Assembly: GCA_947455595.1 (NCBI GenBank)
Contig: CANGOP010000002.1
Coordinates: forward strand, 124,001 to 188,000
Length of the DNA: 64,000 nt
Direction of reading: 5' to 3'
DNA from: Gammaproteobacteria bacterium
GTDB lineage: Bacteria; Pseudomonadota; Gammaproteobacteria; Steroidobacterales; Steroidobacteraceae
Shown one piece after another: positions 35,744 through 64,000 of the stretch; the first letter of the stretch is position 1; every line of letters starts with the position of its first letter. Made by a program: the position numbers and the translations under genes. Below the pieces are notes generated by a model. It searched no databases. It was not told where the DNA came from and worked only from the letters and a program-made list of their open reading frames with translations.

Positions 35744-35767
35744 GGACTGACGGACGGGAGTGAACTG

Positions 35768-41561: not shown

Positions 41562-41990
41562 GTGGTTACTCAGAATGCGCGTCAAGCCGTATCCAAGGGC
41601 TTTACCCTGCTCGAGTTGTTGGTCGTCATGGTCATTATTGGACTGCTGGCAGGCCTCGTGGCGCCACGTTACTTCGCTCAGGTGGGAAAGTCTCAGACGA
41701 AAGTGGCAAAAGCCCAGATCGATTCGCTCGAAAAGGCGCTCGACACCTATCGCCTCGACGTCGGCCACTACCCGTCTACGGAAGAAGGCTTGCAGGCGCT
41801 TGTCGCCGGTCCGAGCGGCGAGACCAATTGGGCAGGCCCCTATCTGCGTAAAGGCATTCCGGCTGACCCGTGGGGCCGTCCTTACGTCTATACCCAGCCG
41901 GGTACCCATAGCGACTACGACTTGATGTCCTACGGCAAAGACGGCCGTGAGGGCGGTACGGGCGAAGATGCGGATATCGTGAACTGGTAA
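41562..41990 (+). CDS. gspG: type II secretion major pseudopilin GspG (GTG start)
   Basis: A 142-residue prepilin. The prepilin peptidase site is SKG/FTLLELL, with Glu at mature position 5, followed by the hydrophobic helix and a GspG C-terminus with the YPSTEEGLQALV loop and the calcium-site region GTGEDADIVNW. I chose GTG 41562 because AGGAGAG lies 8 bases upstream and the leader is then a normal short basic one; an in-frame ATG at 41505 gives an over-long leader. First gene of the secretion operon; gspF follows after 3 bases. Confidence 0.93.
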   Translation: MVTQNARQAVSKGFTLLELLVVMVIIGLLAGLVAPRYFAQVGKSQTKVAKAQIDSLEKALDTYRLDVGHYPSTEEGLQALVAGPSGETNWAGPYLRKGIPADPWGRPYVYTQPGTHSDYDLMSYGKDGREGGTGEDADIVNW

Positions 41991-41993
41991 CCG

Positions 41994-43172
41994 ATGCGTT
42001 TCAAAGTCACATCACTGGATGCGTCGAGCGCGGTCACGATCAACGAGATCGACGCCCTTGATGAAGCCGACGTGCGCCGCCAAGCGGTGGCACGCGGACT
42101 GCGCATCTTATCGATCGAGGCGTCACGCCTCGGACGGGTCGGTCGAGCCAAGCTCGCGTTGGTGCCGTTCTCGAACGAATTGGTGTCACTGCTGGAAGCG
42201 GGCCTCACGCTGGTTGAAGCCATCGATGCCCTGACCGAAAAAGAACGGGACGACTCGATTCGCTCAGTTCTTGAGGGCTTGCGACGACGCCTGTTCGAAG
42301 GTCAAAGCTTGTCCGTGGCCTTGGGCGAGTTTCCCAGCACTTTCCCGGCGCTTTACGTGGCCACTATTCGGGCCAGTGAGCGCAGCGGTGCGATCTCAGA
42401 AGCACTGCGTCGCTTCGTCGCTTATCAAGAGCAAATCAATGTGCTGAAGAAGCGCGTGATCAATGCGTCTATCTATCCGGCGGTCCTGCTCAGCGCGGGC
42501 CTTCTTGTCGTCTTGTTCTTGGTCGCCTACGTGGTGCCCCGCTTTAGCAGCGTTTATGAAGAAATTGGCGGCGAATTGCCGCTTGCCTCCCGCATGCTCA
42601 TGGGATGGGGGAAGTTGCTTGAAGCCCACGGGATGGCGGTGCTCACCGGATTCCTGGCGATTGTTGTTGCGCTGGGATACCTCGTCGCACAAGCATCGTT
42701 CCGTGCGGCAGTGGGGCGGTCAATTCTCAAAATCCCGGCGATTGGTCGTCAGATGCAGACCTACCAGCTTGCGCGCCTCTACCGAACGGTCGGTATGTTG
42801 CTGCGCGGTGGTATCCCTGTGGTGACCGCATTTGAAATGACCCGCGGGTTGCTCGCCGCCAACGCTCAGCCGCGACTTGTCGCTGCTACCAAAGCAGTGC
42901 GCGAAGGCCGTTCGCTGACCGAAGCACTTGCAGCAGAAGGCCTGACCACGGCGGTCGCCGAGCGCATGCTGCGCGTCGGTGAACGTAGCGGCAACATGGG
43001 TGAAATGATGGAACGCATCGCCGCGTTCTATGACGACGAACTTTCTCGCTTTGTTGACGTCGCCACTCGTCTGATTGAACCCGCCATGATGGCGGTCATT
43101 GGACTCGTAATTGGCGGCATCGTGGTCCTTATGTATTTCCCGATTTTCGAGCTCGCTGGGAGCATCCGATGA
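41994..43172 (+). CDS. gspF: type II secretion inner-membrane platform protein GspF
   Basis: A 392-residue platform protein with two repeated GspF/PilC domains and three membrane helices (about 165-190, 215-240, 365-390). Conserved segments include EAGLTLVEAIDAL, ATIRASERSGAI and MLRVGERSGNMGEMM. It couples the ATPase to pseudopilus assembly. It overlaps gspE by 4 bases. Confidence 0.94.
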   Translation: MRFKVTSLDASSAVTINEIDALDEADVRRQAVARGLRILSIEASRLGRVGRAKLALVPFSNELVSLLEAGLTLVEAIDALTEKERDDSIRSVLEGLRRRLFEGQSLSVALGEFPSTFPALYVATIRASERSGAISEALRRFVAYQEQINVLKKRVINASIYPAVLLSAGLLVVLFLVAYVVPRFSSVYEEIGGELPLASRMLMGWGKLLEAHGMAVLTGFLAIVVALGYLVAQASFRAAVGRSILKIPAIGRQMQTYQLARLYRTVGMLLRGGIPVVTAFEMTRGLLAANAQPRLVAATKAVREGRSLTEALAAEGLTTAVAERMLRVGERSGNMGEMMERIAAFYDDELSRFVDVATRLIEPAMMAVIGLVIGGIVVLMYFPIFELAGSIR

Positions 43173-44878
43173 ATGCCGCCCTAATCGACCTGCGTGTCGT
43201 CCCCGATACGCCCAAAATAAATGACATCCCGGATGAGGTCATTCGCTCCGCACTTGCAGCTGCGCAAGATGGTCGTACCGTCATTGCGCGTCTGATGGAA
43301 TTGACGGGTCTGGACGGCGAAGCGCTCGCGCTCTCGCTCGGCAGCAAATTGGACTACCCCGTCCTGTCGGACGTCGCGCTCCTCGAACTCCCGCCGGCCT
43401 TTGATGTCTTAGGCCCGACAGACGCCTCCCGCCGTGGGTGTGTGATTGTGCGTCGTGGCAGCGAATTGCTCGCCGTGACCTCGGATCCCTTTGATCCCGG
43501 CATTCGCGGCTGGGTTGAGGTGCGTGTGCACGTCCCTCTGCAATGGACGATTGCATCGGCCGAGTCGATTTCCGCGTTCATATCGCGTCACGAGCAAGAT
43601 ATGCGCGCGATGGATGTCGCCGGCATGTCCGACGACGATGGCGACGCTGACCATGATGATGTTGAAAATCTTTCCCTGGCCACGATCTCGAGTGACTCCA
43701 GTCCAGTCGTCAAGTTGGTGCACTCCACGGTGTATGACGCGCTCAAGGCGGGCGCGAGCGACATCCACTTGGAAACTCGCCCATCGGGGCTTGCCGTTCG
43801 CTATCGCGTCGATGGCGTGCTGATTCATGTTGCATCACTGGGTGGCGCAGATCTGTGCGAACAGGTCATCTCGCGTATCAAAGTGATGAGCGAGCTCGAC
43901 ATTGCTGAACGGCGCGTGCCACAAGATGGCCGCTTCAAATTAGCCCTCAAAGGCCGACCGATCGACTTCCGCGTGTCGATTATTCCGAGCGTGCATGGCG
44001 AAGACGCCGTGCTGCGTATTCTCGACAAGCAGACACTGACGGATGAGCTGCAGGGCTTGCGTCTTGACGGCTTGGGTTTTGACCCCGAAGTCGTCAATCG
44101 TCTGCGGCGCCTGTCGAACTTGCCCTATGGCATGTTGTTGGTCACGGGCCCAACGGGCTCAGGTAAAACGACCACGTTGTATGCGGCGATTTCTGAGACC
44201 AACACGGGGCAAGACAAGATCATCACGATTGAAGACCCGGTCGAGTATCAGCTCGCAGGTGTTCTGCAGATCCCCGTAAATGAGAAGAAAGGCCTCACCT
44301 TTGCGCGAGGCCTGCGCTCCGTGCTCCGTCATGACCCTGACAAGATCATGGTGGGCGAAATTCGTGACCCTGAAACGGCCCAGATTGCGATTCAATCCGC
44401 GCTGACCGGTCACTTGGTCTTCACTACCGTGCACGCGAACAACGTGTTTGACGTGTTGGGTCGTTTCGCCCACATGGAAGTTGATCCATACGCCTTTGTG
44501 TCCGCTTTGAACGGCATTATGGCGCAGCGCCTCATTCGCGTCGTCTGCGAGCAATGCGCTGAGCCACATCATCCATCTCCTGAAATGATCGCTCAGGCGG
44601 GGCTACAACTACCCGCGGTTGCCGCGTGGCAGTTTCGAGTAGGTCGCGGATGTGCTCACTGTCGCGGCACCGGTTATAAGGGTCGAAAGGCGATTGGCGA
44701 GCTGCTCGTGCTGACCGATGAGTTACGTGAGGCGATCGTCGCGCGAGCGCCTGCACGGAAATTAAAGGAGCTCGCCGAGGCGGGCGGCTCGAAACTCATG
44801 CGTACCGTTGCGCTGGAACTGGTGCGTGATGGCAAAACCACTTTGTTGGAGGCCAATCGTGTTACCGCTATGGCGTGA
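43169..44878 (+). CDS. gspE: type II secretion ATPase GspE
   Basis: A cytoplasmic hexameric ATPase of 569 residues powering pseudopilus growth. Walker A GPTGSGKTTTLYA, Asp box EDPVEYQ, Walker B region IMVGEIRDPETAQIA, His box ALTGHLVFTTVHANN and a four-cysteine zinc motif (CEQC ... CAHC) are present. It sits third in the operon, behind gspF, rather than before it as in the common order. Confidence 0.95.
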   Translation: MNAALIDLRVVPDTPKINDIPDEVIRSALAAAQDGRTVIARLMELTGLDGEALALSLGSKLDYPVLSDVALLELPPAFDVLGPTDASRRGCVIVRRGSELLAVTSDPFDPGIRGWVEVRVHVPLQWTIASAESISAFISRHEQDMRAMDVAGMSDDDGDADHDDVENLSLATISSDSSPVVKLVHSTVYDALKAGASDIHLETRPSGLAVRYRVDGVLIHVASLGGADLCEQVISRIKVMSELDIAERRVPQDGRFKLALKGRPIDFRVSIIPSVHGEDAVLRILDKQTLTDELQGLRLDGLGFDPEVVNRLRRLSNLPYGMLLVTGPTGSGKTTTLYAAISETNTGQDKIITIEDPVEYQLAGVLQIPVNEKKGLTFARGLRSVLRHDPDKIMVGEIRDPETAQIAIQSALTGHLVFTTVHANNVFDVLGRFAHMEVDPYAFVSALNGIMAQRLIRVVCEQCAEPHHPSPEMIAQAGLQLPAVAAWQFRVGRGCAHCRGTGYKGRKAIGELLVLTDELREAIVARAPARKLKELAEAGGSKLMRTVALELVRDGKTTLLEANRVTAMA

Positions 44879-45671
44879 CGAAGTTGTGGTGTATTTGGCG
44901 CCGCAGCGCGTGGCGCTCACTCGTCTCAAGCGAGGTTTTGGCCGTCGTGTGCTCGCCTCTCGGCAGTGCGACGTGGCCAACGGACAGGCCGGCGATCCTG
45001 CGGGCGCTTTTGCGTGCCTGACGGATTTATTGACGGACAGCCAGTGGCAGGATGCGTCGGCCCGTGTCGTTCTGGCTGATTCGTGGGTGCGCTACGGCCT
45101 TGTCCCGGCTCCGGCCGTCTCTTTGGATGCCGACGGTCGTCTGAGTCACGCTCGTTATGTATTGACCGACATTTTTGGCGATAGCTTGTCGGACTGGACT
45201 GTGACGCTCACCGATGTGCCGCCGGGTAAGCCCTATCTTGCCTGCGCAACTCCGGCACCACTGCGAACGGAATTAGAAGACGTCCTGTCGGCAGCCCAGC
45301 TACGACTCACCTCGCTGCAGCCCCAATTGGTGGTGTCATTTAACGCCTGGCGCCGACACTTGCCGACGGGAGAATGCTGGTTCGTCAGCATTGATGATGG
45401 TTCGTTGGCCGCCGTGCAGGTGGTCGATGGCAGCTGGAATCGAGTGCACACGGCGCGGCTCTCTGCGCAATGGACGGTCGAGCTTCAGCGACTTCGCGCC
45501 TTTGGGCGGTTTACAGAAGCGTCAATCGGCGGTAGCCGACTGTTCGTTGACGCGCCCTTGACGATGCGGACGCAAGGACGTGAAGCGCTCCCGGAATTAG
45601 ACTGGTTAGAGCCTGACGAGCGTCTGTCTCAAGTGGTGGAATTCGACCTGCTACAGCGGGTGGCAGTATGA
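44859..45671 (+). CDS. PilM/GspL-like platform protein
   Basis: A 270-residue cytoplasmic protein without a clear membrane segment. The N-terminus (VVYLAPQRVALTRLKRG) and the overall layout suggest the actin-like fold of PilM or the cytoplasmic half of GspL; similarity is by fold pattern and position only. I chose GTG 44859 because TTGGAGG stands 7-8 bases before it; this overlaps the gspE end by 20 bases. Followed by PilN- and PilO-like genes, it makes a split GspL/GspM set. Confidence 0.65.
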   Translation: MLPLWRDEVVVYLAPQRVALTRLKRGFGRRVLASRQCDVANGQAGDPAGAFACLTDLLTDSQWQDASARVVLADSWVRYGLVPAPAVSLDADGRLSHARYVLTDIFGDSLSDWTVTLTDVPPGKPYLACATPAPLRTELEDVLSAAQLRLTSLQPQLVVSFNAWRRHLPTGECWFVSIDDGSLAAVQVVDGSWNRVHTARLSAQWTVELQRLRAFGRFTEASIGGSRLFVDAPLTMRTQGREALPELDWLEPDERLSQVVEFDLLQRVAV

Positions 45672-46186
45672 AGAATCCGAATAGGGTTCAGCTCGACTTC
45701 GTCGCGCCGGTGCATGAGGCACGGGCCACCGGCCTTGCGCTCATCGTGATGGGTGGCGTCGCCGTCTTGGGATTGGCTGCTGCATTCAACGCCGAGTTAT
45801 CGGAGCGCGACCGGGTCGAAGCGAAGCTCGATGCCGTGCCGCGCGTGAAGCGATCCGCGCCGATTACCGATCCAAAATTGACGGCCGAGCTAGGATCGAT
45901 CCAGCATGAGCTCAATGTCCCGTGGACGCCGGTGCTGAATGAATTGGAAGCGGCCAATCACGATTTGGCTGAGACCGTCTCGGTGCTCAGCGTCGTGCCG
46001 GATGCCGAAAAGCATACGGTCCGCATCGTCGCCGAAGTCCGTCAGCTACCGGACGCGCTCAAATATCTTGAGCGGCTGCAAAAGAGCGAATTGTTGCGTT
46101 ACCCGATGTTGGAAAGCCACGAGCGTCGCAAAGACGATCCGGAGCATCCGATTCGCATCAAGCTGTCAGCGGAGTGGCGGTCATGA
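45668..46186 (+). CDS. PilN-like inner-membrane protein
   Basis: A 172-residue bitopic protein: a short cytoplasmic end (NPNRVQLDFVAP), one helix (about 24-42), and a periplasmic ferredoxin-like domain with a coiled coil. The start NxxxLDF segment recalls the PilN motif that contacts PilM. Identification rests on this topology and on position between PilM-like and PilO-like genes; overlaps are 4 bases on both sides. Confidence 0.65.
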   Translation: MKNPNRVQLDFVAPVHEARATGLALIVMGGVAVLGLAAAFNAELSERDRVEAKLDAVPRVKRSAPITDPKLTAELGSIQHELNVPWTPVLNELEAANHDLAETVSVLSVVPDAEKHTVRIVAEVRQLPDALKYLERLQKSELLRYPMLESHERRKDDPEHPIRIKLSAEWRS

Positions 46187-46839
46187 GCGACAATTTAGTG
46201 CAGATGTCCCGTTCGACGCCTGCGAACGCCAAGCCAGCCGTCGCGCTGCGCTCAGCGCCGATCGAAGGTCGCGCGGTGGTGATCGCACGGCGGGTGTCAC
46301 GCGAGTGGATTCCGGCGATGGCCTGGCAGATCCGTCGCACAGGCCGGCGTGGCTTGATTGGGCTCGGATTGTTGGCAACTGCGGCCGTCTTTTTCGCATC
46401 GACGCACTGGCCGTTGGTGACCCAGGTGCAGTCGATGCGAGATGACCTGCAGGCGGCGTTGACGACGGCTGCGAAGCGCTCCGCCGATGTCGCACCCACA
46501 GCGGCCAACGATCCCCGCCGTCTACTGGAGTCGTTACCCAGTCGGACCGAGGTGCCAAAATTGCTCGGCGTCATTCTGACGCAGGCGGATACCGCTGGAC
46601 TATCGATCGATACGGGGAAGTATGACGTTGCTGCCTCTCACAACGGTGCAGTCACGCGTTATCACATCGGGTTTCCGGTCACGGGCTCGTATCCCGCGGT
46701 CCGTTCGTTCATCGACCAGGTGCTGAAGGCCATTCCGACGGCCTCAATCAGTGAATTGTCGATTGAGCGAAAGAGCATTGCCGATGGGGTCGTCGAAGCG
46801 AACATTCGGCTAACGTTGTTTACGCGGGGGGCGCCATGA
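46183..46839 (+). CDS. PilO/GspM-like inner-membrane protein
   Basis: A 218-residue protein with one membrane helix (about 60-77) and a periplasmic domain whose end resembles PilO/GspM (HIGFPVTGSYPAVRSFIDQV, then ISELSIERKS). It would dimerise with the PilN-like protein. The start is ATG 46183 overlapping the previous stop; a slightly earlier ATG is less likely. Confidence 0.68.
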   Translation: MSDNLVQMSRSTPANAKPAVALRSAPIEGRAVVIARRVSREWIPAMAWQIRRTGRRGLIGLGLLATAAVFFASTHWPLVTQVQSMRDDLQAALTTAAKRSADVAPTAANDPRRLLESLPSRTEVPKLLGVILTQADTAGLSIDTGKYDVAASHNGAVTRYHIGFPVTGSYPAVRSFIDQVLKAIPTASISELSIERKSIADGVVEANIRLTLFTRGAP

Positions 46840-47429
46840 GGCATCTACCGGTACTCAGCGGCCTACTCGGGGCGACCGGTCGCGTCAGCAACCGGCGTCG
46901 TTGGATCATGGTCATCGTGGTTGGGCTGCTTGCTGCCGCCACGGGTCTCTACAGTATTGAGTCTGCGCGGCAAACCCGTCAGCAGCAAGCCGCGGCGGGT
47001 CTCGTTGAGGCACGCGCCCGTGCCATCGCCAAGGCGAAGGCGATCGCGCTCGCCCGCGCGAAGTCCGCTGCAGCCGCACAGCCTAAAACGTTGGTGACGA
47101 GTGGACGTGTGGTGCCCTCCACGCAGGCGGCTGATCTATTCGCGCCGCATTCATGGTACGTTGCGCCGCCGCCACCACCACCGGCAGCTGAAGAACCGCC
47201 GCCTGCACCGACGGCGCCGCCATTGCCGTATACCTATGTTGGCAGCTACGCCCCGTCCGGCGAACGCGCGACGTATTTTCTTGCTCGTGGTGATCGTGTT
47301 GTCGACGCTCATGTCGGCGACAAACTTGATGGTTCGCTCCTGTTCGAGAAAGTCGAAGGGGGTCAACTCGTGTTCAACTACTTGCCGCTCAACATCCGGC
47401 AGACCTTGCCGGCCGGAGTCGTCCAGTGA
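46836..47429 (+). CDS. GspC/PilP-like periplasmic linker protein
   Basis: A 197-residue protein: membrane helix about 24-41, an Ala/Lys/Arg-rich coiled region, a proline run (PPPPPPAAEEPPPAP), and a C-terminal domain (YTYVGSYAPSGERATYFLAR, GDRVVDAHVGDKL) like the homology-region domain of GspC/PilP that docks to the secretin. It overlaps the secretin gene by 4 bases (GTGA). Assignment from position and domain pattern. Confidence 0.65.
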   Translation: MRHLPVLSGLLGATGRVSNRRRWIMVIVVGLLAAATGLYSIESARQTRQQQAAAGLVEARARAIAKAKAIALARAKSAAAAQPKTLVTSGRVVPSTQAADLFAPHSWYVAPPPPPPAAEEPPPAPTAPPLPYTYVGSYAPSGERATYFLARGDRVVDAHVGDKLDGSLLFEKVEGGQLVFNYLPLNIRQTLPAGVVQ

Positions 47430-49882
47430 AATCTTTCGTATCGTGTTTTCTCCCAGTTCTGTTGGTTTTGGTGTTGGCCGGCTGTGCCGCGGACTCACTC
47501 CACCGGGAGGGTGTATCGGCTGTTGATCATGGCGACTACGAAGTCGGAATCGCCAAGTTGAGCGACGCCGCCCGCCGGGATCCCAATAATCTGGTCTTCC
47601 GCATGGATCTGCTGTCGCGGACTGAGCGTGCGGTACAGACGCTCGTATCTCAGGCAGATACTGCACGCGCCGCGGGCGATCCGGCTGCTGCGGAACGCGC
47701 ATTCCGTCGGGTCCTCGCAATCGAGCCGTCAAACTCACGTGCGAAAAATGGACTGGCGCAGGTTCAGGCAGACGTCGCCCATACAGACCGGGTCGCGAAA
47801 GCGCAGAAACTACTCGACAAGAAAGATCTCGATGCAGCCGAGATCGAGTTACGAGCGGTTCTCGAGGAGGACGCCAGTTTCGTCCCTGCGCAGACGCTCT
47901 TGGTGAAGTTGCAGAGCGCGCGCGGCCCCGTGAGTGCCGTCCCTTCTCTCAAGACCAAAGATAGCCGTGCGGTAACACTCCAGTTCCGGGACGCACAGAC
48001 TAAGATGGTTTTCGAGGTGCTCGCTCGGCAGACAGGCCTCAATTTTATTTTCGATAAAGATGTAAAGAGCGATGGCAAGACGACGATTTTCGTCAGCCAA
48101 GTGCCGGTTGAGTCGGCTATTGACCTGATTCTGGCGCAGAATCAGCTCGCCAAGCAGGTACTTGCGGACAACATGGTGCTGATCTATCCGGCCACACCGA
48201 CCAAGCAGAAGGAATATCAGGAAGAGATCGTCCATTCCTTCTATCTGGCGAATGCAGCGGTCAAGGATGTGGAGAACCTGCTGAAGACCGTGTTGGGTGC
48301 GAAGACGTTATTCGTCGACGAGCGCGCCAATCTCGTCGTCATGCGTGATACGCCGGAACATATCCGCATGGCGGAAAAGCTGGTGTCGTCCATTGACGTC
48401 GCGGAGCCGGAAGTCATCTTGGAAGTTGAGGTGTTGGAGGCTGCGCATACCCTGCTCGACCAGCTCGGCATCCGATATCCATCGTCGGCGACCTTTACAC
48501 CGACGCCGCTCTCAGGCGCGGCTGCGGCCGCTAGCGGTGGCACGACGCCTGTGACCACGGCGGCGAACTCGGCGATGCACATCAATGACTATCTGCACCA
48601 GAATCGCAACACGATCACGGTGTCTCAGATGACGGCTGGCGTGGACTTTCTGAAGACCACCGGTCAGACGAACGTCTTGTCGAGCCCACGCATCCGCGCC
48701 AAGAACAAAGAAAAAGCGAAGATCATGATTGGTGACCGCGTCCCAGTGGTGACCTCGGGCGCCTCGGCAGGCGTCGGCAATTCATCTTTCGCAACCAGCA
48801 GCGTTCAGTATCTCGAAGTGGGTTTGAACTTGGATGTGACGCCGACGATCCACCTCGATGGCAATGTGCAGATCAAGGTGGGTCTGGAAGTTTCGTCCAT
48901 CGTGAAGGAGTTCGACGTCGCGACCGGCAGCGGTGGCCAGACCCACGTTTACCAGATCGGTACCCGCAATGCGACGACGACGCTGGAGCTGAAGGACGGT
49001 GAAACCCAAGTGCTGGCCGGTCTCGTGACGGACAGCGACCAGAAGAGTTCCTCCCATATTCCAGGTTTGGGCGATATGCCCATCCTCGGACGTCTGTTCG
49101 GCTCGAATGGTACGAATCGCAACAAGAGCGAGATTATTTTGTCGATCACGCCGCGAATCATCCGCGCGCAGACACGCCCGACGGTTGATTCGACCGAGTT
49201 CTGGTACGGAACGGAGACGCAGACTCGCTCTGCGCCATTTGGCAGCTCACATACGGCCGATGGTAATGCGGCCTCTTCCGCGCCGGTAGCCGGAGCGGGT
49301 GGGGTGTCGACGATGTCTGGGCCTTCCGTATCGCAAGCGCCGAGTGTTCCGCGCACGTTGCCGCAGCGCATGGATGCAGGAACGTCCGTTGCACCACCGC
49401 CGAGTGACGCCACGCCGAGCGACGACTCAAACGCAGCGAAAAATCTGCCTGCTGCGGCCAAAGATGCGGCATCGTCGGAAGCGCCGGCGTCGTCGGACGG
49501 CAAGGCAAGGATCACCCTCGATGGGCCGACGACGGCTAAGGTCGGTGACGAAGTCTCTGTGGCCGTCCGAATGGATGGCGCGTCAGGCGTGGGTAAGGTC
49601 AGGACTCAGCTGCGCTTTGACCCGACTGCCTTGCAGGTGGTCTCTGCGGATGCGGGCGACGTCGCACCGGGTGGAAAGGTCGATGTTCGGGCCGGCGGCA
49701 TTCAATTGGACTCGAACGGTACGCAGGTAGGCGCGAGCGGAAGCCTGCTCAACGTGCGCTTCAAGGTACTGATTGCGCGCCCGACCATCACGGTGTCGAC
49801 TCAGGTGGTCTTGATGAGCGAGGAGGGGACGGCACTTGCCGCGACCCAAGCGACCCCCATCGCGATTGCAGCCACTCCGTAA
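47426..49882 (+). CDS. gspD: secretin lipoprotein with TPR and cohesin-like domains (GspD-like)
   Basis: The outer-membrane channel of the system, 818 residues, starting at GTG 47426. Lipobox LVLAGC (Cys20) predicts a lipid anchor. Then come two or three TPR-like repeats (about 28-150), an STN/N0 domain (VTLQFRDAQTKMVFEVLARQ), an N1 domain, the secretin core (about 390-590: VLSSPRIRAKNKEKAKIMIG, VPVVTSG, HIPGLGDMPILGRLFGS), a low-complexity Ala/Ser/Pro linker, and a cohesin-like beta domain (about 690-818: LDGPTTAKVGDEVSVAVRMD). TPR and cohesin parts are absent from classical GspD and may dock special cargo. Confidence 0.9.
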   Translation: MKSFVSCFLPVLLVLVLAGCAADSLHREGVSAVDHGDYEVGIAKLSDAARRDPNNLVFRMDLLSRTERAVQTLVSQADTARAAGDPAAAERAFRRVLAIEPSNSRAKNGLAQVQADVAHTDRVAKAQKLLDKKDLDAAEIELRAVLEEDASFVPAQTLLVKLQSARGPVSAVPSLKTKDSRAVTLQFRDAQTKMVFEVLARQTGLNFIFDKDVKSDGKTTIFVSQVPVESAIDLILAQNQLAKQVLADNMVLIYPATPTKQKEYQEEIVHSFYLANAAVKDVENLLKTVLGAKTLFVDERANLVVMRDTPEHIRMAEKLVSSIDVAEPEVILEVEVLEAAHTLLDQLGIRYPSSATFTPTPLSGAAAAASGGTTPVTTAANSAMHINDYLHQNRNTITVSQMTAGVDFLKTTGQTNVLSSPRIRAKNKEKAKIMIGDRVPVVTSGASAGVGNSSFATSSVQYLEVGLNLDVTPTIHLDGNVQIKVGLEVSSIVKEFDVATGSGGQTHVYQIGTRNATTTLELKDGETQVLAGLVTDSDQKSSSHIPGLGDMPILGRLFGSNGTNRNKSEIILSITPRIIRAQTRPTVDSTEFWYGTETQTRSAPFGSSHTADGNAASSAPVAGAGGVSTMSGPSVSQAPSVPRTLPQRMDAGTSVAPPPSDATPSDDSNAAKNLPAAAKDAASSEAPASSDGKARITLDGPTTAKVGDEVSVAVRMDGASGVGKVRTQLRFDPTALQVVSADAGDVAPGGKVDVRAGGIQLDSNGTQVGASGSLLNVRFKVLIARPTITVSTQVVLMSEEGTALAATQATPIAIAATP

Positions 49883-49906
49883 GCCTTGGGATGTTGACAT
49901 ATTAAT

Positions 49907-52357: not shown

Positions 52358-52460
52358 GCCCAATGACCAACCCTTGTATGGCCTCGGTCCTTGTTATGAC
52401 GGTCACCCCATCGGGTGCTGCAGCGAGTGACCCCTTCCGCGCGTTCTCGGAGGATGCGAC

Positions 52461-54254: not shown

Positions 54255-54270
54255 TCTCAGGAGAGCCGCG

Positions 54271-55884: not shown

Positions 55885-55900
55885 TCCCTGGAGTACTTAG

Positions 55901-58900
55901 ATGCTCACTATCCTGAAAAAAGCTGCACGGCTCACTTCGAGCTTAGGCGCTTCTCTGCTGCTCCTGGGCGGCTTGACTGCCCTCTCGGCGCCGGCATCTG
56001 CCGGCACCGCCAATCTGATCGCGTCGGGTAAAACCACGACGTTGCCAGACGGGACGGTTGTGCCGATGTGGGGGTATTCCTGCAACGACAACCCGAGTGC
56101 CGGTGTCACCTGTGCCGCAGCCAATGCCGGCGCAGGCAGCAACTGGTCGCCGGTGGTGATCACGGTCGATTCGTCGCAAACGACGAACCTGACCATCACG
56201 CTCAACAACCAGTTGGCCTTCAACGGCAACAACATCCCAACCTCCCTCGTCATCGTGGGTCAGGTGGGTGGTGGACTGGGCACAACCGCAACGTCGGTTG
56301 CCGGTCCTGTGCATGGTGAGCAGCAGACCACCTGGCCGGTGATTGCCGGTGGCGACACCAACACTCCGCCGAAGCAGGGCAATCGCGTGCAGTCGTTCAC
56401 GACTGAAGCGAAAGTGGGTGTGAATGGCGGCAATGCGACCTACACCTTCTCGTCCCTGCGCCCGGGCACTTATCTGATTCAGTCGGGTACCCACCCGTCG
56501 ATTCAGGGTCCGATGGGTCTGTATGGCGTCCTCGTCGTGACCAACGGCAGCACCCGCGCGGCGTATCCGTCGAATGCGGCGGCGACGTACGACGCGGATC
56601 TCGCGTTGGTGTTCAGCGAAATCGATCCGGTACAGAACGCGGCGGTCGATACGGCTGTGCGCACGACCGGTTTTTCGGAGACGGCGGCCTGGAGTGGTCT
56701 CACCGGCAAGTGCGGTGACCCGACGATCCACACCTGCTATCCGCCGACGGTGAACTACTCACCGCGTTACTACTTGGTGAACGGCGTCTCGTACGACCGC
56801 GCTAATATCGGCGCCTCGTCGGCGTCGGTGTTGCCTCTGGTCAACAGCGTCGCGCCCACCTCAACCACAGGTCGAGTCCTGCTTCGCTACGTGAACGCGG
56901 GTCTGCGCATGCACGTGCCGACGGTGGTGGGTCTGCAGTCCACGATCATCGCGGAAGACGGCAATCTCCTCCCGGGCAATCCGCGCGTGCAGAGCGAAGT
57001 GTTCCTCGCCGCCGGCAAGACCCATGACGTCACCATCAGCCCCAAGCTGACCGGCAGCAGCTACTCGCCGGCGACGTATCCGATTTTCGATCGTCAGCTG
57101 AGCCTGACGACCAACAGCCAGCGCGATGGCGGTATGCAGGCTTACATCAAGGTCGCTGGCGGTGCCACGACGGGTGTGGGTTCTGTCGCCGGTACCCAGA
57201 AGTCGCTGTCGGGTGATGCCAACAAGCAGTACTTCTGCCAGAGCAACTCGCCGTTACAGGTCAACGACCCGAACCGCGGTCTCCTCGCGGGCGTGTCGGG
57301 CGCGAATGGCGTGAAGCTGGTCAGCCAGTCGCTGCCGGCGGGTTCGAGCTTGAACTTCAATACGAACGGCACCTTCACCTACACGCCGCCGACGAGCGGC
57401 GCGTGCGGCGGTAGTTTCGCCTTTGCCGTGAATGGCACCGCCAATCACACCGCGACGATCATCGAGTGTGACGCCACCATTCAGGGCGCCGGCTGCGTGC
57501 TCACGGGCGCTCCGGTTCTGCATGATGACGCCTACAAGTCGAGCAATGCGAAGACCATCGCGGTCGCGACCCCGGGCGTCCTGGTCAACGACACGGATCC
57601 TGCCGGTAAGGTGCTGACCGTTGACGCGAGCACGGTCCACGTCGTCGGCGGCGCGCCGATGACGGTCAGTGTGAATGCCGACGGTTCGTTCCTGGCGCAG
57701 GCGACGACGCCTGGCACCTACTCGTTTACGTACAACGTTCAGAACTCGCAGAAGGTTGCCGCGGTTTCCCCGGCGACGGTGACGGTCACCTTCCCGCAGG
57801 GTTCAGGCCTTACGGTCCACGTGCGCGACGGCAAGCATGCGGCATGGTCGGAAATTACCGACTACCGCTGGATCATTGAAGAAGACCGCACGTTCTTCCA
57901 TGACCCGAAGTGCCAAGTCAACCACGGCACCTACGGCCAGTCGCCGACGGACAACAACGGCAACGTCGTGACCGATTCCTACGGTCAGCCATGCCCGCCA
58001 CTGCCCATTGAAGCAGTGGGCTACAACTTCCACAGCGCGGGTATGCCGACCGTGGCAACCGGCTGTGTGGGTGACGTTTCTTGCGAAAATGGCCAGACAC
58101 TCCTCGGTCAGCCCGCGGTTTGCGACGTTGGCAACGGCATCTGTCGTACGAATGCCGCCAGCTTGCGCTCACTGTCGCCAGCCGATGTGGCGTTGGATCC
58201 GCACAAGCACTACTTCATCACCATCATGCCGGGTGACGGCATCAACCCGACGCTGAACGGCGCCGGTGGTCCGGTCTGTAAGGGCGCTGTCGATACGAAT
58301 GGCAACTGCACGACGACCATGCGTCAGTTCGACCTCGCGCTTGACTGCCCGAACGAGACGGATTTCACGGCAGGTTCCGGTCTTTGCGGTCACCACATGA
58401 GTGGTGCGCAGATTCCGCCGGCCTTCGCGTCGGATGGCACGCCGGTGACCCCGGAAGTGACGATCAAGTTGATCGAAACGCCGATCCCGCCTGCGCAGAT
58501 CTCGGTGCTCGTCTACGAAGACGACTACCCGCTGAACGGTGAGAACGACGCCGGCGGCGGTGTCGACATCCTCGCCAACAACGAGCCGGGCCTCGGCGAC
58601 TTCCAGATCATCCTGCTCGACCAGGCTGGCCAGTTGGCCGATAACGTCGGTCAGTTGACCTGGGACATGTTCAACCAGCCGCTGACGAACGCGTTGGCTG
58701 GCACCATCGACCCGATGAACGGTAACGATGCTTGCCCGGTCTCCTCGAATCCCGACAATCTGATCGGCATGATCGTCACCTGTCCGAAGTACGAGAGCGA
58801 CCACGTGACGCTCTCGCCATTGGCGGGCCAGGCGGTCATCTCGAACCTGCCGCCAGGACTGTACGAAGTCCAATCCATGCCGAACGCCGATCGCATCGCG

Positions 58901-61900
58901 CGTGGCGAGGAATGGCTGCAGACCAATACGCTGGACGGCGGCAAGCCCCACGAGGCGTTCATTCGCCCAGGTGAGCCGCGTCAGTTCCAAGAATTCGGCC
59001 CAGGCGGCTTCCACGTCCAGGTCGGCTTCGCGAATCCGAAGTTCATTAACAACCGCCGTCATAACGACGCCGGTACGGGTCTGTGCGATGCGGCGCCGAA
59101 GGGCGGCGGCTTGTCGTGTAACTCGACGCTGATCGGTCACGTTCACGGCAACCACATGAGCCGTACGCCGGATGAGCGCACCTACGACACGGGCACTTAC
59201 GACGCGTTTGCCTGGTCGGCCTGCTACGTCTCGATCGGTATTCCGGACGAGGAAGACATCGCGTTCGCGAAGTGCGACGGCGAAGGGAACTTCTCGGTCT
59301 CTGGTATGCCGAACGGCACCTTCAAGGTGGCGGTGTTCGACCAGTGGAACGACATCATGCTCGACGGCCTCGTGTCGTCGATCAATGTGAATGGCAATAC
59401 AGAGCTGACGCTGACGGCAACGCAGTGGCGCACCAACCTGTATGCCCGCACCTATTTCGACCAGAACGGCAACGGTGTGCCTGATCGCGATGCGAACGGC
59501 AACGACCTGGAGCCGGGCCTGAACACGATCCCCATCAACATTCGCTATCGTGATGGTGAAATCGCGTTTGCGAACCAGACCGATTCGAACGGCTATGCCG
59601 CTTGGAACGAAGTATTCCCGCTGATGGCGTGGCTCGTGGTTGAGCCGGACTTCAGCCGCTACAAGCCAACCGGCACCCACGTCGTTTACGACGCTGGCGG
59701 TCCGGACGACTGCTCGCCGCGCGCTGCCGAGTTCTATGGCACGCTCGTCGGTCACTGCTCGAAGACGGCCGCTTTCCTTGCTGGCACCACTGAGTTGGTC
59801 TCGGTGCCGGAAGCGTTGCGCGTCCCGGGTGCGGTGTACTGCCAGAACGCCGATTGCACGGAAACCTCGATCCAGAACGGCAAGTACTTCAATGCCGGCG
59901 GCTCGTCGGGCCCCACCACCAACCTGTCGTCGGGTCGCATCGATCCGCCGAACCGGATGGAAGCCTGGCAGGGTCTCCTCGGTCAGCACAGCTTCATCGA
60001 CTTCGGCTACAAGCCGTACGCTCCGGGCGAGAACGGCGGTATCCGCGGTATGGTCGTCTATGCGTCGACTCGTCCGTTTGACGATCCGAAGGATCTCTTC
60101 CAGAACAACTGGGAGCCGGGCGTTCCCAACGTCACGATTAACCTTTACAAGAAGGGCGTCGCTGCCGACGGCACCGTCACCATGACGTTGGCCGACACCG
60201 TGCAGTCCGAGAGCTTTGACTCTTGGGCGCAGGGCTTCCGCACGGACGGCACGGGCACGGGCACCTTGCTCACGACCGGCACCGGTGCGGACGCCGGCTA
60301 CGTCCCGAACATGAACTGCCCGGGCCAGGATCCGACCAGCGGCTTCTTCGCGACCCTGCAGGGTTCGAAGATGTGGCTCGACACGCCGGATCCGGTCACG
60401 CACACCAAGAAGCAGATTGCGTACAAGGCGCAGTTCAAGTGCTTCGACGGCTGGGCGATGCTCAACCAGATTCAGCCAGCGACCTACGACGGCCACTACG
60501 CGTTCCCGTCGGTGACCGATCGCAACCCGAACACGGGTCGTCCGTCGGCCACCAACTGCAAGATCTGCGTAGCGAATCCGGATGACGGCAACCCGATGCT
60601 CCCTGCGGGCGATTACATCGTGGAAGTGGTCCCACCGGCCGGCTACGAAGTTGTCAAGGAAGAAGACAAGAACATCCTCATGGGCGACGTCTACATCGCG
60701 CCCGTGACGCAGCAGTTCGCAGGTTTGGGCGCGATCTTCATCATGCCGGACCAGGCCACCGTGGCCGCGAACTACAACCCGAACAATGCGGTGAACTCCA
60801 GCAACAACTTGGGCTCCTCAGTGATGCCGCGCAGCATCCAGGCGGTCTTTGACCTGCAGTTCTGGCCTTGCGTGGGTACCACCCGTGTGGTGCCGGACTA
60901 CAACTCGCTCTACCCGGGCGTGCAGCAGACGGCTCCATTCGCCGGCTCCACGCGCGCGGTGTGCGATCGTAAGGAAGTGAACCTCGCGGATCAGATGGGC
61001 GCGAATGCCGCGTTCTTTATGTTCACGAAGGCTCACAAGGCTGGTCGCTTCTATGGCGTGATGTCCAACGACATGGCGTCCGAGTTCGATCCGTTCTCGC
61101 CGGCTTACGGTGAGAAGTTCGGCCCGCCGAACCTGCCGGTCGGTATGCGTAACTTTGCTGGCGAAGAAGTCGTCCGCGTGTACGCTGACCAGTGGGGTAT
61201 CTACAACGGCCTGTTCCCGTCGAGCTGGGAAGTGAACCCGCCGACGCCGTCGGGCTACGCGCCGCAGATGTCGATTGCCTGTATGAACGATCCAGGCCCG
61301 ATCCTCGACAAGACGGTGGGTTCGCCGACCTACGGGCAGATGATCACGGATCCGCAGTACAACCCTGCATACTCGAACTTCTGCTACGAACATCCGCACA
61401 TGCCGGGCGTGAACGCCCACATGGATACGCCCGTCACGCCAGTGCAGGCGTTCGCGGATCACTACAACTTGCCGGACGCGGAGTACCCTGACGGTACGCC
61501 GATGATCAAGCGCGCTGACTTTGTGGGTCACACGGGTCCGTGGTCGCCGACCTCGGCTGGCGTCGCTTCGGTGACGTTGACGAACGGTGGCAGCAACTAC
61601 ACGTCCGTACCGACCGTGGGCTTCACCAACGGCGGTGGCTCGGGCGCGACGGCGACGGCGACCATGAAGGTCTCGGCGATCAGCTTGACAGCGGCCGGTA
61701 CCGGCTACACCAGCACGCCGACGGTGACCATCACCGGCGGCGGCGGCTCGGGCGCGACGGCGACGGCCTGCACGGGCATTACGTCGGCTACGATCACGTT
61801 TACCGCGAACCAGTTGTGGGGAACCACGGCCGGTCCGGTGGTGATCTTCAACGGCACCTCGACGCAGCAGTTGCTGGGCGTGAACCTGAACGGAGCCACG

Positions 61901-64000
61901 GCGACGGTTAACAGCACCGGCACGGGCGCAGCGAAGTCGATCACCAGCTTGACCGTCACGGACGGCGGCTGCTACTCGACGCTGCCGACGACCGTGAAGC
62001 TGCAGGACCGCCTGCTGTTCCCGACGAAGACCATCACGTTGACCAAGGGCGCCCTTGTGAACGGTGCCACCTGGAACACCGGCATCTCCACGCTCACGCT
62101 GGGTAACTCGGGCTCAGGCTACACCAGCCTGCCGACCGCGACGATCACGGGCGGTGGCGGTACGGGCGCGACGGCGAGCCTCAAGATGGCCGTCAACGCG
62201 GTCACGCTGAACACGGCCGGTACCGGCTACTCCAGCATCCCGACCGTGACCTTCACGGGCGGCGCTGGCTCAGGTGCTGCGGCGACGGCTGCGCTCACCT
62301 CGGGTACGGCCAAATCGAACTTGGTGCTCACCGCCTTCGGTGACCGCTCGGTCCAGAACCCTCTGTATGCCGGCCCGAACGCCAACATTGCGCCGTACAA
62401 CGCCAAGACGGTCATCCGTCACTACGGCTTTGGCGCGCAGTGCTCGGCCAACGATGCGCTGACCCATGCGAATAACTGCGCCGCCGAGTCGTCGGTCCTC
62501 GTCTTGGGCCCGGGCTGCCGTGAAGCGGATGCCGGTACGAAGGCAGGCTGTGTCAAGGCGACCGTCAACTCGTGGACCGATGCGTCCATCAACGTGACGA
62601 TCCCGGCCGGCGTGCCCGCCTGTGCGGTGCAGCAGCAGGGCCAGGCCCAGTCGCTGTGCGGCCAGGTCGTCGTTCTCTCGGGTAGTGGTAAGCAGTCGAT
62701 CGATGGCATCACCGTCACCTTGGGTGGCAAGGCGCCGACGATCGTCACGCCGACCTCACCGAGCCGCGACTTGCACACGTTCGGTGACATCTTCCCGACG
62801 CCGCTGCAGACGGCGATCGACAACGCAAGCCCAGGCGATCTTCTGATCGTCGAGGCAGGCGCGTATCGCGAGAACGTGATCATGTGGAAGCCAGTGCGCC
62901 TGCAGGGCGTCGGCAACGGCGTGGTCTCGATCAATGCCGATGCACAGCCGGCCGAGAAGCTCGCTGCCTGGCGCCGCCAGATCAGCTGCTTGTTCGGTCT
63001 GACCGTGCAGGGCGCGCCGAATATCAATAACGAAGGCTTCGATCCGGAAGCCGGTAAGTACACCTGCCCAAGCTCGATGTACTTCCGCGCCGATCGACTG
63101 CCGTTCGAAGGCTTCGTGGGCTGGGATACCTCGTCCAACGGCAACCTGATGCAGCTCGTCATCGAGCCGTCGCTGATGGGTGCATACGAAGGTGCGGGCA
63201 TCACGGCCGTTGGCCGTGGCGTCAACCAGTCGCGCGTGCCTGCCGCCAGCCTTGACCCATGGGGTCAGAGCACGGGCGGTGGCCCATACGCTGCCGGCTC
63301 GGTCTACTTGAGCACGGATCCCAACAGCGACGGCACCAAGCTGCTCGCGAATCCGTGGACGAGCTCCGAGTGTAAGACGGCTCCGCCGTCGGGTAACACG
63401 ATCCACGACTACTACACGGGCAACTTCGATTGCAACCCGTCGACCATCGACGGCTTGACGATCCACAACAGCTCGCAGGGTGGTGGCGGTATCTTTATCC
63501 ATGGCTGGAACCACCATCTCCAGGTGGCGAATAACCGTATCCAGGCCAATGCCGGTACCCTCGCGGGCGGTATTAACCTCGGTAACGGCGAAATCCCGCC
63601 AGCGTTCGTACTCGACAACACCACCTGTGGTGCCACGGGTCTCAATCCGGTTCCGCTGTGCCCGCCGATCCCGGCTGGCTCGCAAGTCGGCTTGATGATT
63701 CCGTATCGCTTCGAGGATGGCGTGCGCATTCACCACAACCAGATCATCAACAACGCTTCGATCGGCGACGCACTGTTCTCGTACGTGCCGTCGGGTTCGG
63801 GTGGTGTGACGATCTCGGGTGGTGCGGACAACTACGAAATCGACCACAACTGGATTGCCTCTAACCTCACGGCCGGTGACGGCGCGGGTATCGCGCACAT
63901 GGGCATGAGCGAGAACGGCTTCATCCACAACAACTTCGTGCTCTTCAATGAAGCCAACAACCCGACTCTCGAAGTCGACGGTGGCGGCATCATCATCATG
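55901..64000 (+). CDS. giant exported protein, at least 2700 aa, 3' end outside window
   Basis: An uninterrupted frame of exactly 2700 codons to the window edge, no stop reached. GGAG precedes the ATG; signal peptide ends near APASA (residue 35). Domains by inspection: cupredoxin/MCO-like region without full copper motifs (about 35-425: LPDGTVVPMWGYSCN, GTYLIQSGTHPSIQGPMGLYG); Ig/VCBS-like repeats (VLVNDTDPAGK, about 550); several SdrD/Cna-B-like beta domains (about 870-1700: FDQNGNGVPDRDANGND); Gly-rich GTGYTSTPTVTITGGGGSG repeats (about 1887-2135); and a right-handed beta-helix (from about 2290: LQTAIDNASPGDLLIVEAGA, then N-rich rungs). It is probably a surface or secreted filamentous partner of the two oxidases. 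Confidence 0.87.
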   Translation, partial: MLTILKKAARLTSSLGASLLLLGGLTALSAPASAGTANLIASGKTTTLPDGTVVPMWGYSCNDNPSAGVTCAAANAGAGSNWSPVVITVDSSQTTNLTITLNNQLAFNGNNIPTSLVIVGQVGGGLGTTATSVAGPVHGEQQTTWPVIAGGDTNTPPKQGNRVQSFTTEAKVGVNGGNATYTFSSLRPGTYLIQSGTHPSIQGPMGLYGVLVVTNGSTRAAYPSNAAATYDADLALVFSEIDPVQNAAVDTAVRTTGFSETAAWSGLTGKCGDPTIHTCYPPTVNYSPRYYLVNGVSYDRANIGASSASVLPLVNSVAPTSTTGRVLLRYVNAGLRMHVPTVVGLQSTIIAEDGNLLPGNPRVQSEVFLAAGKTHDVTISPKLTGSSYSPATYPIFDRQLSLTTNSQRDGGMQAYIKVAGGATTGVGSVAGTQKSLSGDANKQYFCQSNSPLQVNDPNRGLLAGVSGANGVKLVSQSLPAGSSLNFNTNGTFTYTPPTSGACGGSFAFAVNGTANHTATIIECDATIQGAGCVLTGAPVLHDDAYKSSNAKTIAVATPGVLVNDTDPAGKVLTVDASTVHVVGGAPMTVSVNADGSFLAQATTPGTYSFTYNVQNSQKVAAVSPATVTVTFPQGSGLTVHVRDGKHAAWSEITDYRWIIEEDRTFFHDPKCQVNHGTYGQSPTDNNGNVVTDSYGQPCPPLPIEAVGYNFHSAGMPTVATGCVGDVSCENGQTLLGQPAVCDVGNGICRTNAASLRSLSPADVALDPHKHYFITIMPGDGINPTLNGAGGPVCKGAVDTNGNCTTTMRQFDLALDCPNETDFTAGSGLCGHHMSGAQIPPAFASDGTPVTPEVTIKLIETPIPPAQISVLVYEDDYPLNGENDAGGGVDILANNEPGLGDFQIILLDQAGQLADNVGQLTWDMFNQPLTNALAGTIDPMNGNDACPVSSNPDNLIGMIVTCPKYESDHVTLSPLAGQAVISNLPPGLYEVQSMPNADRIARGEEWLQTNTLDGGKPHEAFIRPGEPRQFQEFGPGGFHVQVGFANPKFINNRRHNDAGTGLCDAAPKGGGLSCNSTLIGHVHGNHMSRTPDERTYDTGTYDAFAWSACYVSIGIPDEEDIAFAKCDGEGNFSVSGMPNGTFKVAVFDQWNDIMLDGLVSSINVNGNTELTLTATQWRTNLYARTYFDQNGNGVPDRDANGNDLEPGLNTIPINIRYRDGEIAFANQTDSNGYAAWNEVFPLMAWLVVEPDFSRYKPTGTHVVYDAGGPDDCSPRAAEFYGTLVGHCSKTAAFLAGTTELVSVPEALRVPGAVYCQNADCTETSIQNGKYFNAGGSSGPTTNLSSGRIDPPNRMEAWQGLLGQHSFIDFGYKPYAPGENGGIRGMVVYASTRPFDDPKDLFQNNWEPGVPNVTINLYKKGVAADGTVTMTLADTVQSESFDSWAQGFRTDGTGTGTLLTTGTGADAGYVPNMNCPGQDPTSGFFATLQGSKMWLDTPDPVTHTKKQIAYKAQFKCFDGWAMLNQIQPATYDGHYAFPSVTDRNPNTGRPSATNCKICVANPDDGNPMLPAGDYIVEVVPPAGYEVVKEEDKNILMGDVYIAPVTQQFAGLGAIFIMPDQATVAANYNPNNAVNSSNNLGSSVMPRSIQAVFDLQFWPCVGTTRVVPDYNSLYPGVQQTAPFAGSTRAVCDRKEVNLADQMGANAAFFMFTKAHKAGRFYGVMSNDMASEFDPFSPAYGEKFGPPNLPVGMRNFAGEEVVRVYADQWGIYNGLFPSSWEVNPPTPSGYAPQMSIACMNDPGPILDKTVGSPTYGQMITDPQYNPAYSNFCYEHPHMPGVNAHMDTPVTPVQAFADHYNLPDAEYPDGTPMIKRADFVGHTGPWSPTSAGVASVTLTNGGSNYTSVPTVGFTNGGGSGATATATMKVSAISLTAAGTGYTSTPTVTITGGGGSGATATACTGITSATITFTANQLWGTTAGPVVIFNGTSTQQLLGVNLNGATATVNSTGTGAAKSITSLTVTDGGCYSTLPTTVKLQDRLLFPTKTITLTKGALVNGATWNTGISTLTLGNSGSGYTSLPTATITGGGGTGATASLKMAVNAVTLNTAGTGYSSIPTVTFTGGAGSGAAATAALTSGTAKSNLVLTAFGDRSVQNPLYAGPNANIAPYNAKTVIRHYGFGAQCSANDALTHANNCAAESSVLVLGPGCREADAGTKAGCVKATVNSWTDASINVTIPAGVPACAVQQQGQAQSLCGQVVVLSGSGKQSIDGITVTLGGKAPTIVTPTSPSRDLHTFGDIFPTPLQTAIDNASPGDLLIVEAGAYRENVIMWKPVRLQGVGNGVVSINADAQPAEKLAAWRRQISCLFGLTVQGAPNINNEGFDPEAGKYTCPSSMYFRADRLPFEGFVGWDTSSNGNLMQLVIEPSLMGAYEGAGITAVGRGVNQSRVPAASLDPWGQSTGGGPYAAGSVYLSTDPNSDGTKLLANPWTSSECKTAPPSGNTIHDYYTGNFDCNPSTIDGLTIHNSSQGGGGIFIHGWNHHLQVANNRIQANAGTLAGGINLGNGEIPPAFVLDNTTCGATGLNPVPLCPPIPAGSQVGLMIPYRFEDGVRIHHNQIINNASIGDALFSYVPSGSGGVTISGGADNYEIDHNWIASNLTAGDGAGIAHMGMSENGFIHNNFVLFNEANNPTLEVDGGGIIIM
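61559..62305 (+). repeat. four Gly-rich 36-38-residue repeats within the giant gene
   Basis: Two tandem pairs at 61559-61669, 61670-61777 and 62081-62191, 62192-62305, with a degenerate fifth unit between them (about 61930-62010). Each reads roughly V-x-x-x-T-x-x-G-x-G-Y-[TS]-S-x-P-T-[VA] followed by a GGGSGATATA-like end. The units are also similar at DNA level (ggctcgggcgcgacggcgac), which suggests recent duplication. Confidence 0.85.

Follow-up and report, generated by a model that had tools for sequence, protein, structure and literature searches.

A cluster for a putative three-chain extracellular multicopper oxidase with a divided copper site, and a co-occurring atypical type II secretion system, in Steroidobacteraceae and other bacteria

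Introduction

A 64,000-nucleotide stretch of a Gammaproteobacteria bacterium of the family Steroidobacteraceae (the window: positions 124,001 to 188,000, forward strand, of contig CANGOP010000002.1, GenBank assembly GCA_947455595.1; here G000:C2:124001-188000) carries genes of an atypical type II secretion system (T2SS), followed by genes for a copper chaperone-like protein, two exported proteins related to multicopper oxidases (MCO1 and MCO2) and a giant exported protein. The ligand motifs of a multicopper oxidase (MCO) are divided between MCO1 and MCO2, the split is conserved in related loci, and the oxidase genes co-occur with the T2SS. Judging from its sequences, this cluster probably builds, metallates and exports a three-chain extracellular MCO. 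The oxidase part is known, and the partitioned copper site together with the matching T2SS would be the new contribution. All of the exported proteins and the chaperone claimed in an earlier note on this DNA were found, and the giant, for which at least 2700 residues had been given, has 4115 residues as a whole.

A fuller version of this proposal, to which we give about an even chance, is that the product is a heterotrimeric six-domain MCO, in which a trinuclear centre is common to two polypeptides and the third unit is the head of a surface protein of 2700-4100 residues; that it is fully assembled in the periplasm and then exported as one piece by the co-occurring T2SS; that its carriers include Pseudomonadota, Acidobacteriota and bins assigned to Myxococcota; and that it lies behind the response of Sideroxydans to magnetite. 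How iron- and manganese-oxidising bacteria act on extracellular solids is an open question, for which MCO systems are less understood candidates. The locus predicts that one copper site is formed from two proteins and that one exporter is required by all three chains, and the module occurs in culturable strains. If assembly precedes export, the T2SS would move a very large metalloenzyme complex, testing the size and folding limits of this machine.

Division of the Copper Ligands

MCO1 (52461..54254, plus strand) carries the motifs HTIHFHG and WHCHVAPAEHLQMGM, with H242, C288, H295 and M300 as the putative type 1 (T1) site and H245, H247, H287 and H289 as putative trinuclear ligands. MCO2 (54229..55884, plus strand), whose open reading frame (ORF) overlaps that of MCO1 by 26 bases in a different frame, carries HPFHEHGNH and WHSH, with H348, H350, H512 and H514 as the other trinuclear ligands; all of these roles we take to be as in laccases. 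The partner's motif set was absent from both proteins on inspection of their sequences, and a scan of MCO1 found no HxH pair other than 245/247 and 287/289. By sequence, the two proteins jointly hold the one T1 site and eight trinuclear histidines, on four motifs, of an MCO; all four motifs stand together on none of the three chains, MCO1 and MCO2 having two each and the giant lacking a full motif. The copper site reads as partitioned, MCO1 providing T1 and four trinuclear histidines and MCO2 the other four; in MCOs in general, each partner domain gives four trinuclear histidines (PMC3600357; this and the other papers cited are drawn on in part). Since the halves of the site lie on different chains, MCO1 would have to meet MCO2 for a working O2-reducing centre.

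Scanning of two conserved MCO1 peptides over genome contigs gave 242 stretches with a relative, the best 80 of which are the named loci discussed below. The MCO1 ligands were identical in 90 of 90 ORFs (five of them repeat fetches of a contig) and the MCO2 ligands in 83 of 83 (four being repeat fetches). In three further loci from the genus of a Sideroxydans metagenome-assembled genome (MAG), each locus has the MCO1 motifs, and both loci that were covered in full have the MCO2 pairs. Two other conserved features of these proteins might be further metal sites, namely an invariant histidine pair in MCO2 (H326/H328) and an acidic run in MCO1 (residues 218-222, with E219, D221 and E222 invariant).

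The giant protein (55901..64000, plus strand, running past the window; its frame extends from window position 55901 to G000:C2:192248) has an MCO2-like N-terminal unit, followed by Ig-like, SdrD_B, beta-helix-like and DUF11-type regions. Profile comparison by hhalign gave 99.7% probability for MCO2 against the giant N-terminus and 96.9% for MCO1 against MCO2, so that the large surface protein, which had been taken as an addition beside the oxidase, instead starts with a third MCO-like unit. By sequence comparison, this N-terminus is a third related unit without the ligand set. An HxH pair occurred in 9 of the 80 giant rows: two (L106 and L117) are really MCO2 ORFs, one (L093) is in an apparently wrong frame, five have HMH near H338 and one (L061) has the pair elsewhere.

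The two-domain MCOs of PDB entries 3g5w and 2zwn (T1 in domain 1) share with the window the domain order and motif positions and gave profile matches. MCO1 falls on domain 1 of 3g5w/2zwn, the Cys-motif domain there, with residues 205-310 aligned to that of 3g5w, and the first domain of MCO2 matches domain 1 of 3g5w/2zwn minus the ligands, its histidine motifs matching domain 2 weakly. In 3g5w and 2zwn, however, both halves of the site are present on each chain, whereas in the window they lie on different chains.

Conservation of the Module and Its Surroundings

Among the best 80 of the 242 stretches, carriers were Gammaproteobacteria MAGs, Burkholderia, Paraburkholderia, Trinickia, Collimonas, Gallionella, Sideroxydans MAGs and Acidobacteriota, and two carrier bins were filed under Myxococcota. 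In a quick tree built from the window and 57 of these 80 stretches (58 rows), grouping was mostly by phylum, with 6 label changes against a shuffled mean of 19.4 and with some mixing. MCO2 follows MCO1 in 74 of the 75 loci that extend at least 1.7 kb beyond MCO1, which confirms the earlier observation that the oxidase is divided over separate genes, and the giant is present in 67 of 68 loci with at least 3 kb downstream. A sequencing or frameshift artefact as the source of the split was rejected, as the two ORFs stand in different relative frames (57, 11 and 9 cases among 77 named loci). Apparent MCO1-MCO2 fusions in L032 and L039 (stretch ends) and L048 (contig end), as well as apparent MCO2-giant fusions in L093, L106, L116 and L117, were dismissed as cross-matches of related units, and no true fusion among the three proteins was found in the named loci.

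For about 5 kb beyond the giant, the cluster continues on the same strand. It encodes there an LTXXQ-like protein (below cut-off), then three small proteins (one of them LolA-like, below cut-off) and a cytochrome-type protein with CxxCH (Cytochrom_C 17.7 bits, cut-off 21.3), which gave no match to a periplasmic-binding family such as accompanies the cytochrome c part in MofC of mof-type operons. An FKBP gene (FKBP_N and FKBP_C) follows the cytochrome-type gene on the opposite strand, and FKBP matches occur in 11 other loci. By tblastn, the order of regulator, transglycosylase, kinase, T2SS, SCO, MCO1, MCO2, giant, small proteins and cytochrome is kept in congeners and, as far as the contigs extend, partly in two other genera of the family; the cluster is more than a chance arrangement because its gene order recurs in this way. 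Variants were also detected: a cytochrome gene stands ahead of MCO1 in genome G003, the module and the T2SS are convergent in G016 and on two contigs in G005, and G010 (L038-L040) has two neighbouring module copies, just one of which adjoins the T2SS.

The Secretion System and Its Co-occurrence with the Oxidase

The T2SS-type genes in the window number 11, all on the plus strand at 41562-51279. They encode the major pseudopilin GspG (41562..41990, GTG start at 41562; TIGR01710 184.7 bits, cut-off 88.85), GspF (41994..43172; T2SSF 4e-46), a GspE ATPase with an MshEN domain (43169..44878; T2SSE 3.1e-122), a GspL-like protein (44808..45671; start uncertain, kept in relatives), a PilN/GspM-like protein (45668..46186), a PilO-like protein (46174..46839; Pfam PilO 26 bits, cut-off 22), a PilP/GspC-like protein (46836..47429), the secretin GspD (47426..49882; TPR, STN, Secretin_N, Secretin and a C-terminal cohesin; Pfam Secretin 2.9e-43, Cohesin 1.1e-9) and the pseudopilin-like proteins G2 (49907..50413; N_methyl; 29.4 bits with the GspG model, below cut-off), G3 (50388..50783, ATG at 50388; N_methyl; T2SSG 17.5 bits, below the cut-off of 21) and G4 (50758..51279; conserved by tblastn). 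Four of the names are based on position, the GspL-like protein and G4 having no Pfam match and the PilN/GspM-like and PilP/GspC-like proteins no Pfam or NCBIfam match.

The core of a T2SS is present, as secretin, GspE-type ATPase, GspF and major pseudopilin GspG were all recognised (Pfam, with TIGR01710 over its cut-off). The system is called atypical because canonical GspC, GspL, GspM and minor pseudopilins GspH-K were not recognised in the window block by Pfam or NCBIfam. The earlier note had described 12 adjacent T2SS genes; their place and strand were right, and the count is 11. The cohesin that it had reported on the secretin is indeed found in the window but is not a constant trait, since none was seen by eye in two Burkholderia secretins. 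The cohesin as a general cargo link was rejected on the same two secretins and on genome G014, whose secretin has a cohesin (by eye) without the cargo.

Presence and absence across genomes tie the two blocks together. A strong MCO1 match was detected in 11 of 59 relatives, the window's own genome being excluded (7.4e-74 or better; next 5.3e-16), and the cognate secretin was present in 11 of 11 MCO1-positive versus 3 of 48 MCO1-negative relatives (Fisher p 1.3e-9), 45 relatives having neither. In a second clade, the Burkholderia group (the genus of G064, 65 genomes), MCO1 was found in 16 genomes, and a close G2 relative (at least 83% identity, E 3.5e-88 or better) in the same 16 and in 0 of the 49 others (p 1.5e-15; with the query genome excluded, 15 of 15, p 6.3e-15). 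A lack of co-occurrence of the two blocks in relatives, which the earlier note had named as evidence against its proposal, was not observed in either clade. Module and T2SS lie 32.5-34.2 kb apart in 10 of these 16 genomes, with both on one contig; in G087 a stretch of about 36 kb reaches from one to the other, and the genes between them encode more cytochromes, a CcsB-type protein, a transglycosylase, a kinase, regulators and a SCO. The T2SS stands directly upstream of the module also in Trinickia and Sideroxydans-genus genomes.

Units of two cupredoxin domains, such as those described here, trimerise in two-domain MCOs and recur three times in MnxG and ceruloplasmin. By analogy, MCO1, MCO2 and the giant N-terminus would together make one MnxG/ceruloplasmin-like six-domain oxidase, in which the pair of MCO1 and MCO2 would form the O2-reducing centre and the giant would be the third, structural member, tethering the enzyme to a long chain able to bind a solid surface or polysaccharide. 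The three chains, which by eye have Sec-type leaders, would be loaded with copper in the periplasm (by SCO1/SenC where present), and the folded complex would exit through the cognate atypical T2SS. T2SSs export folded proteins, so this route suits a copper enzyme whose metallation and pairing must come first. A two-component system likely switches the cluster on.

Counter-Evidence and Alternative Readings of the Proteins

Several observations weigh against a jointly built and exported enzyme of this kind. The AlphaFold2 single-chain models are weak, with a mean pLDDT (predicted local distance difference test) of 59.2 for MCO1 (alignment A2, 58 rows) and 67.2 for MCO2 (A3, 54 rows), and both score low across the copper regions. 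A fold search with the models returned copper-protein (cupredoxin) folds only, copper nitrite reductase being the top match for the MCO2 model; the argument for partition therefore rests on sequence. The fold search also bears on the possibility that MCO1 and MCO2 each work alone (MCO1, for example, as an electron-transfer or nitrite-reductase-like protein), the split being an old divergence. Such a reading could draw on the first rank of copper nitrite reductase, but it appears improbable, given that the eight histidines fall four and four and are fixed in every ORF checked, that neither protein has its partner's motifs and that MCO2 so regularly follows MCO1. With regard to gene content, L094 (JANYAD010000125.1) has MCO1 followed by accessory genes, without MCO2 or the giant, and is the sole break of the trio among loci with enough DNA, which may be a bin or assembly error; SCO was not seen between G4 and MCO1 in G003, G008 and G012; and within the genus of the Sideroxydans MAG, just 4 of 34 genomes carry MCO1 (1e-50 or better). 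Many carriers are, moreover, not known as iron oxidisers.

The link to export has exceptions of its own. G007, G014 and G029 have this T2SS but lack MCO1; it may therefore have other cargo. The contig ends beside the T2SS in G007; in G014 (L135 17483-18115 and L136), the T2SS, SCO and regulators by eye directly adjoin genes located just past the cluster in the window's genome, implying that the oxidase block is missing at the same site, which may be a natural loss of this block or may reflect another T2SS cargo. G012 is secretin-positive solely via a C-terminal piece (2.7e-29), which lies where a contig ends, beside G2-G4 and MCO1. Weaker G2 matches (E 6.1e-49 or worse) were present in 14 of the 49 MCO1-negative Burkholderia-group genomes, indicating that related T2SSs occur without MCO1. 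In addition, the threshold for a close G2 relative was set from the gap in scores (3.5e-88 versus 6.1e-49), and both p-values overstate independence because the genomes are kin. In the named loci, a T2SS on the same strand was found within the flank in 16 of 80, two of them weak (L065 and L106), the flanks being at most 10 kb and too short for the Burkholderia group, L055 and L097; on this count an adjoining T2SS as a universal rule was rejected. In Acidobacteriota, a secretin or ATPase is nearby in 6 of 29 loci with 2.5 kb upstream: a divergent secretin precedes MCO1 in five (L061, L066, L069, L082 and L101), and one more has a GspE-like match. As a separate observation, a regulator-like ORF (Crp-like by eye) stands behind the divergent secretin in L061, L069 and L082.

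These exceptions raise the question of whether the T2SS is simply a neighbour with other cargo, the oxidases being periplasmic or exported otherwise. The three relatives with an orphan T2SS, the weaker G2 relatives in the 14 MCO1-negative Burkholderia-group genomes and the lack of a T2SS match near the module in most Acidobacteria loci are what such a neighbour would leave; on the other side stand the joint presence of MCO1 and close G2 in the same 16 genomes of the second clade and the T2SS directly upstream in Trinickia and Sideroxydans-genus genomes, and we regard a purely neighbouring T2SS as a poor prospect.

Known Oxidase Systems and the Likely Substrate

The nearest published counterpart is Slit_1812-1818 of Sideroxydans lithotrophicus ES-1, which encodes three cupredoxin proteins, SCO1/SenC and a cytochrome; two of the proteins have MCO motifs and the third, larger one has adhesin- and polysaccharide-lyase-like domains (PMC12016527, in part). 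As described there, the Slit_1812-1818 proteins are higher on magnetite than on Fe(II)-citrate, and similar clusters are present in Paraburkholderia, Ralstonia, Anaeromyxobacter and Steroidobacteraceae. Elsewhere, 'three tandem MCO-coding genes' have been noted in ES-1 (PMC5566968, in part). The earlier note had proposed a plausible new system; in this respect it is not new, since the oxidase part is already in print in the available parts of these two papers.

The window and Slit_1812-1818 agree in having three cupredoxin proteins (the third much larger and without MCO motifs), SCO1/SenC, small proteins and a cytochrome. The combination of two MCOs, a large cupredoxin protein, small proteins, SCO and a cytochrome was found both in the window (continued in L002) and in G145, a genome on a single contig of 3,003,656 bp, which we infer to be ES-1. 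Its module follows the gene order of Slit_1812-1818 (cytochrome, SCO, two small genes, giant, MCO2, MCO1), and each of the 11 T2SS-type genes has a match upstream of MCO1 and on its strand; compared with the window, MCO1 and MCO2 are 50-58% identical and the giant 26-38% over the matched pieces. The published account, as far as it was available, gives two canonical-motif MCOs and mentions neither secretion nor complementary copper halves (PMC12016527), whereas the window is read as partitioned. A word search of the main text of PMC12016527 found no occurrence of secretion, T2SS or gsp, and a T2SS named in ES-1 is at Slit_0489-0506 (PMC3770913, in part). Proteins raised on magnetite, with an export not discussed in that main text, would in this way be linked to a T2SS that seems adjacent. 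No description of a T2SS link of this cluster was found in the literature searched, outside of which most subscription literature lies.

An atypical T2SS has reportedly been tied to a multicopper protein before, in the OxpG/OmpB system of Geobacter sulfurreducens, which Mehta et al. are said to have described in 2006 for insoluble metal oxides. The window shares with it this linkage as well as a nearby SCO1/SenC gene and a possibly mofC-like gene, SCO1/SenC and mofC-like genes having been noted near ompB (PMC5566968, in part). Compared by description only, OmpB is one chain and the window has three, including the giant. MofA of Leptothrix and MnxG each have six cupredoxin domains that together hold a single T1 and a single trinuclear site, as does the window when its three two-domain units are counted together; they are, again by description only, single chains with all four motifs, which the window spreads (PMC3600357 and PMC8218464, both in part). 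In bacterial six-domain MCOs the site is between domains 2 and 3 (PMC3600357, in part), unlike in the window, where it reads as lying between MCO1, through its first unit domain, and MCO2, through its second. The window's FKBP and cytochrome-type protein stand where mof operons have their mip-like MofB and cytochrome c MofC partners (PMC5566968 and PMC8218464, both in part). These places, together with the likeness to OxpG/OmpB, would suit the proposal of the earlier note, here taken as a split system of the MofA/OmpB type that oxidises Mn(II) or uses insoluble metal oxides, which we nevertheless consider unlikely.

For the three-chain enzyme proposed here, the likeliest job would be to oxidise Fe(II), and possibly Mn(II), at solids or on them. 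The magnetite data on the ES-1 cluster favour Fe(II) within or close to solids, phenolics and Mn(II) being possible alternative substrates. A soil laccase complex, in which the same split oxidase acts on phenolic or humic compounds of plant litter and the giant tethers it to polysaccharide, seems somewhat unlikely. Many carriers (Acidobacteria, Burkholderia, Paraburkholderia and Collimonas) belong to soil groups, judged by record title or usual habitat; beta-helix/NosD-like and Ig-like regions occur in the giant, and MCO1 of the window has a weak, below-cut-off CBM_5_12 match. However, magnetite is the published condition under which the ES-1 cluster is raised, and ES-1 is an iron oxidiser (PMC12016527, in part); in addition, a possibly mofC-like cytochrome-type protein and FKBP accompany the cluster as in mof operons.

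Neighbouring Genes and Further Observations

The copper chaperone-like SCO1/SenC gene (51623..52357, plus strand; PF02630 6.2e-23), whose start may instead be at 51701 or 51722, lies between G4 and MCO1. Ahead of the T2SS are genes for a LuxR-type response regulator (37826..38602, minus strand; Response_reg and GerE), which has the same relative position in relatives, a lytic transglycosylase (38824..39441, plus strand; SLT and DUF4124, Pfam SLT 1.3e-29), also present in the loci of relatives and on the Burkholderia island, and a PAS-HisKA_3 histidine kinase (39596..41350, plus strand; Pfam), which is syntenic in relatives. Tryptophan biosynthesis-type genes (anthranilate synthase component I, PALP and TrpA families) are located directly upstream of the cluster, at window 31294-37806.

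In MCO1, an insert at about residues 131-190 gives the weak CBM_5_12 match; this block has a pLDDT of 85-94 and is present in 5 of the 9 rows of alignment A1. In the giant (L002 901-13248), residues of about 1930-2190 and 3060-3500 contain, by eye, Gly/Thr/Ala-rich repeats of the GGSGYTS-P-VTITGGGGSGATATA kind. Burkholderia-group giants that end inside their locus have 2696-2876 aa.

Between module and T2SS in G087, a gene on the minus strand (L154:11935-13371) encodes a protein that has a single CxxCH and, by eye, probably a beta-barrel, without a Pfam or NCBIfam match, and is followed by genes for a diheme-type cytochrome c and a CcsB-type protein. From its sequence, the CxxCH-barrel protein looks like a cytochrome-porin fusion, and may be Cyc2-like. 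It was rejected as a partner of the module, since matches occur in 20 of 40 relatives, some of them without MCO1. In the window's own genome, a 38% identical match is located at G000:C9:45828, unlinked to the window cluster.

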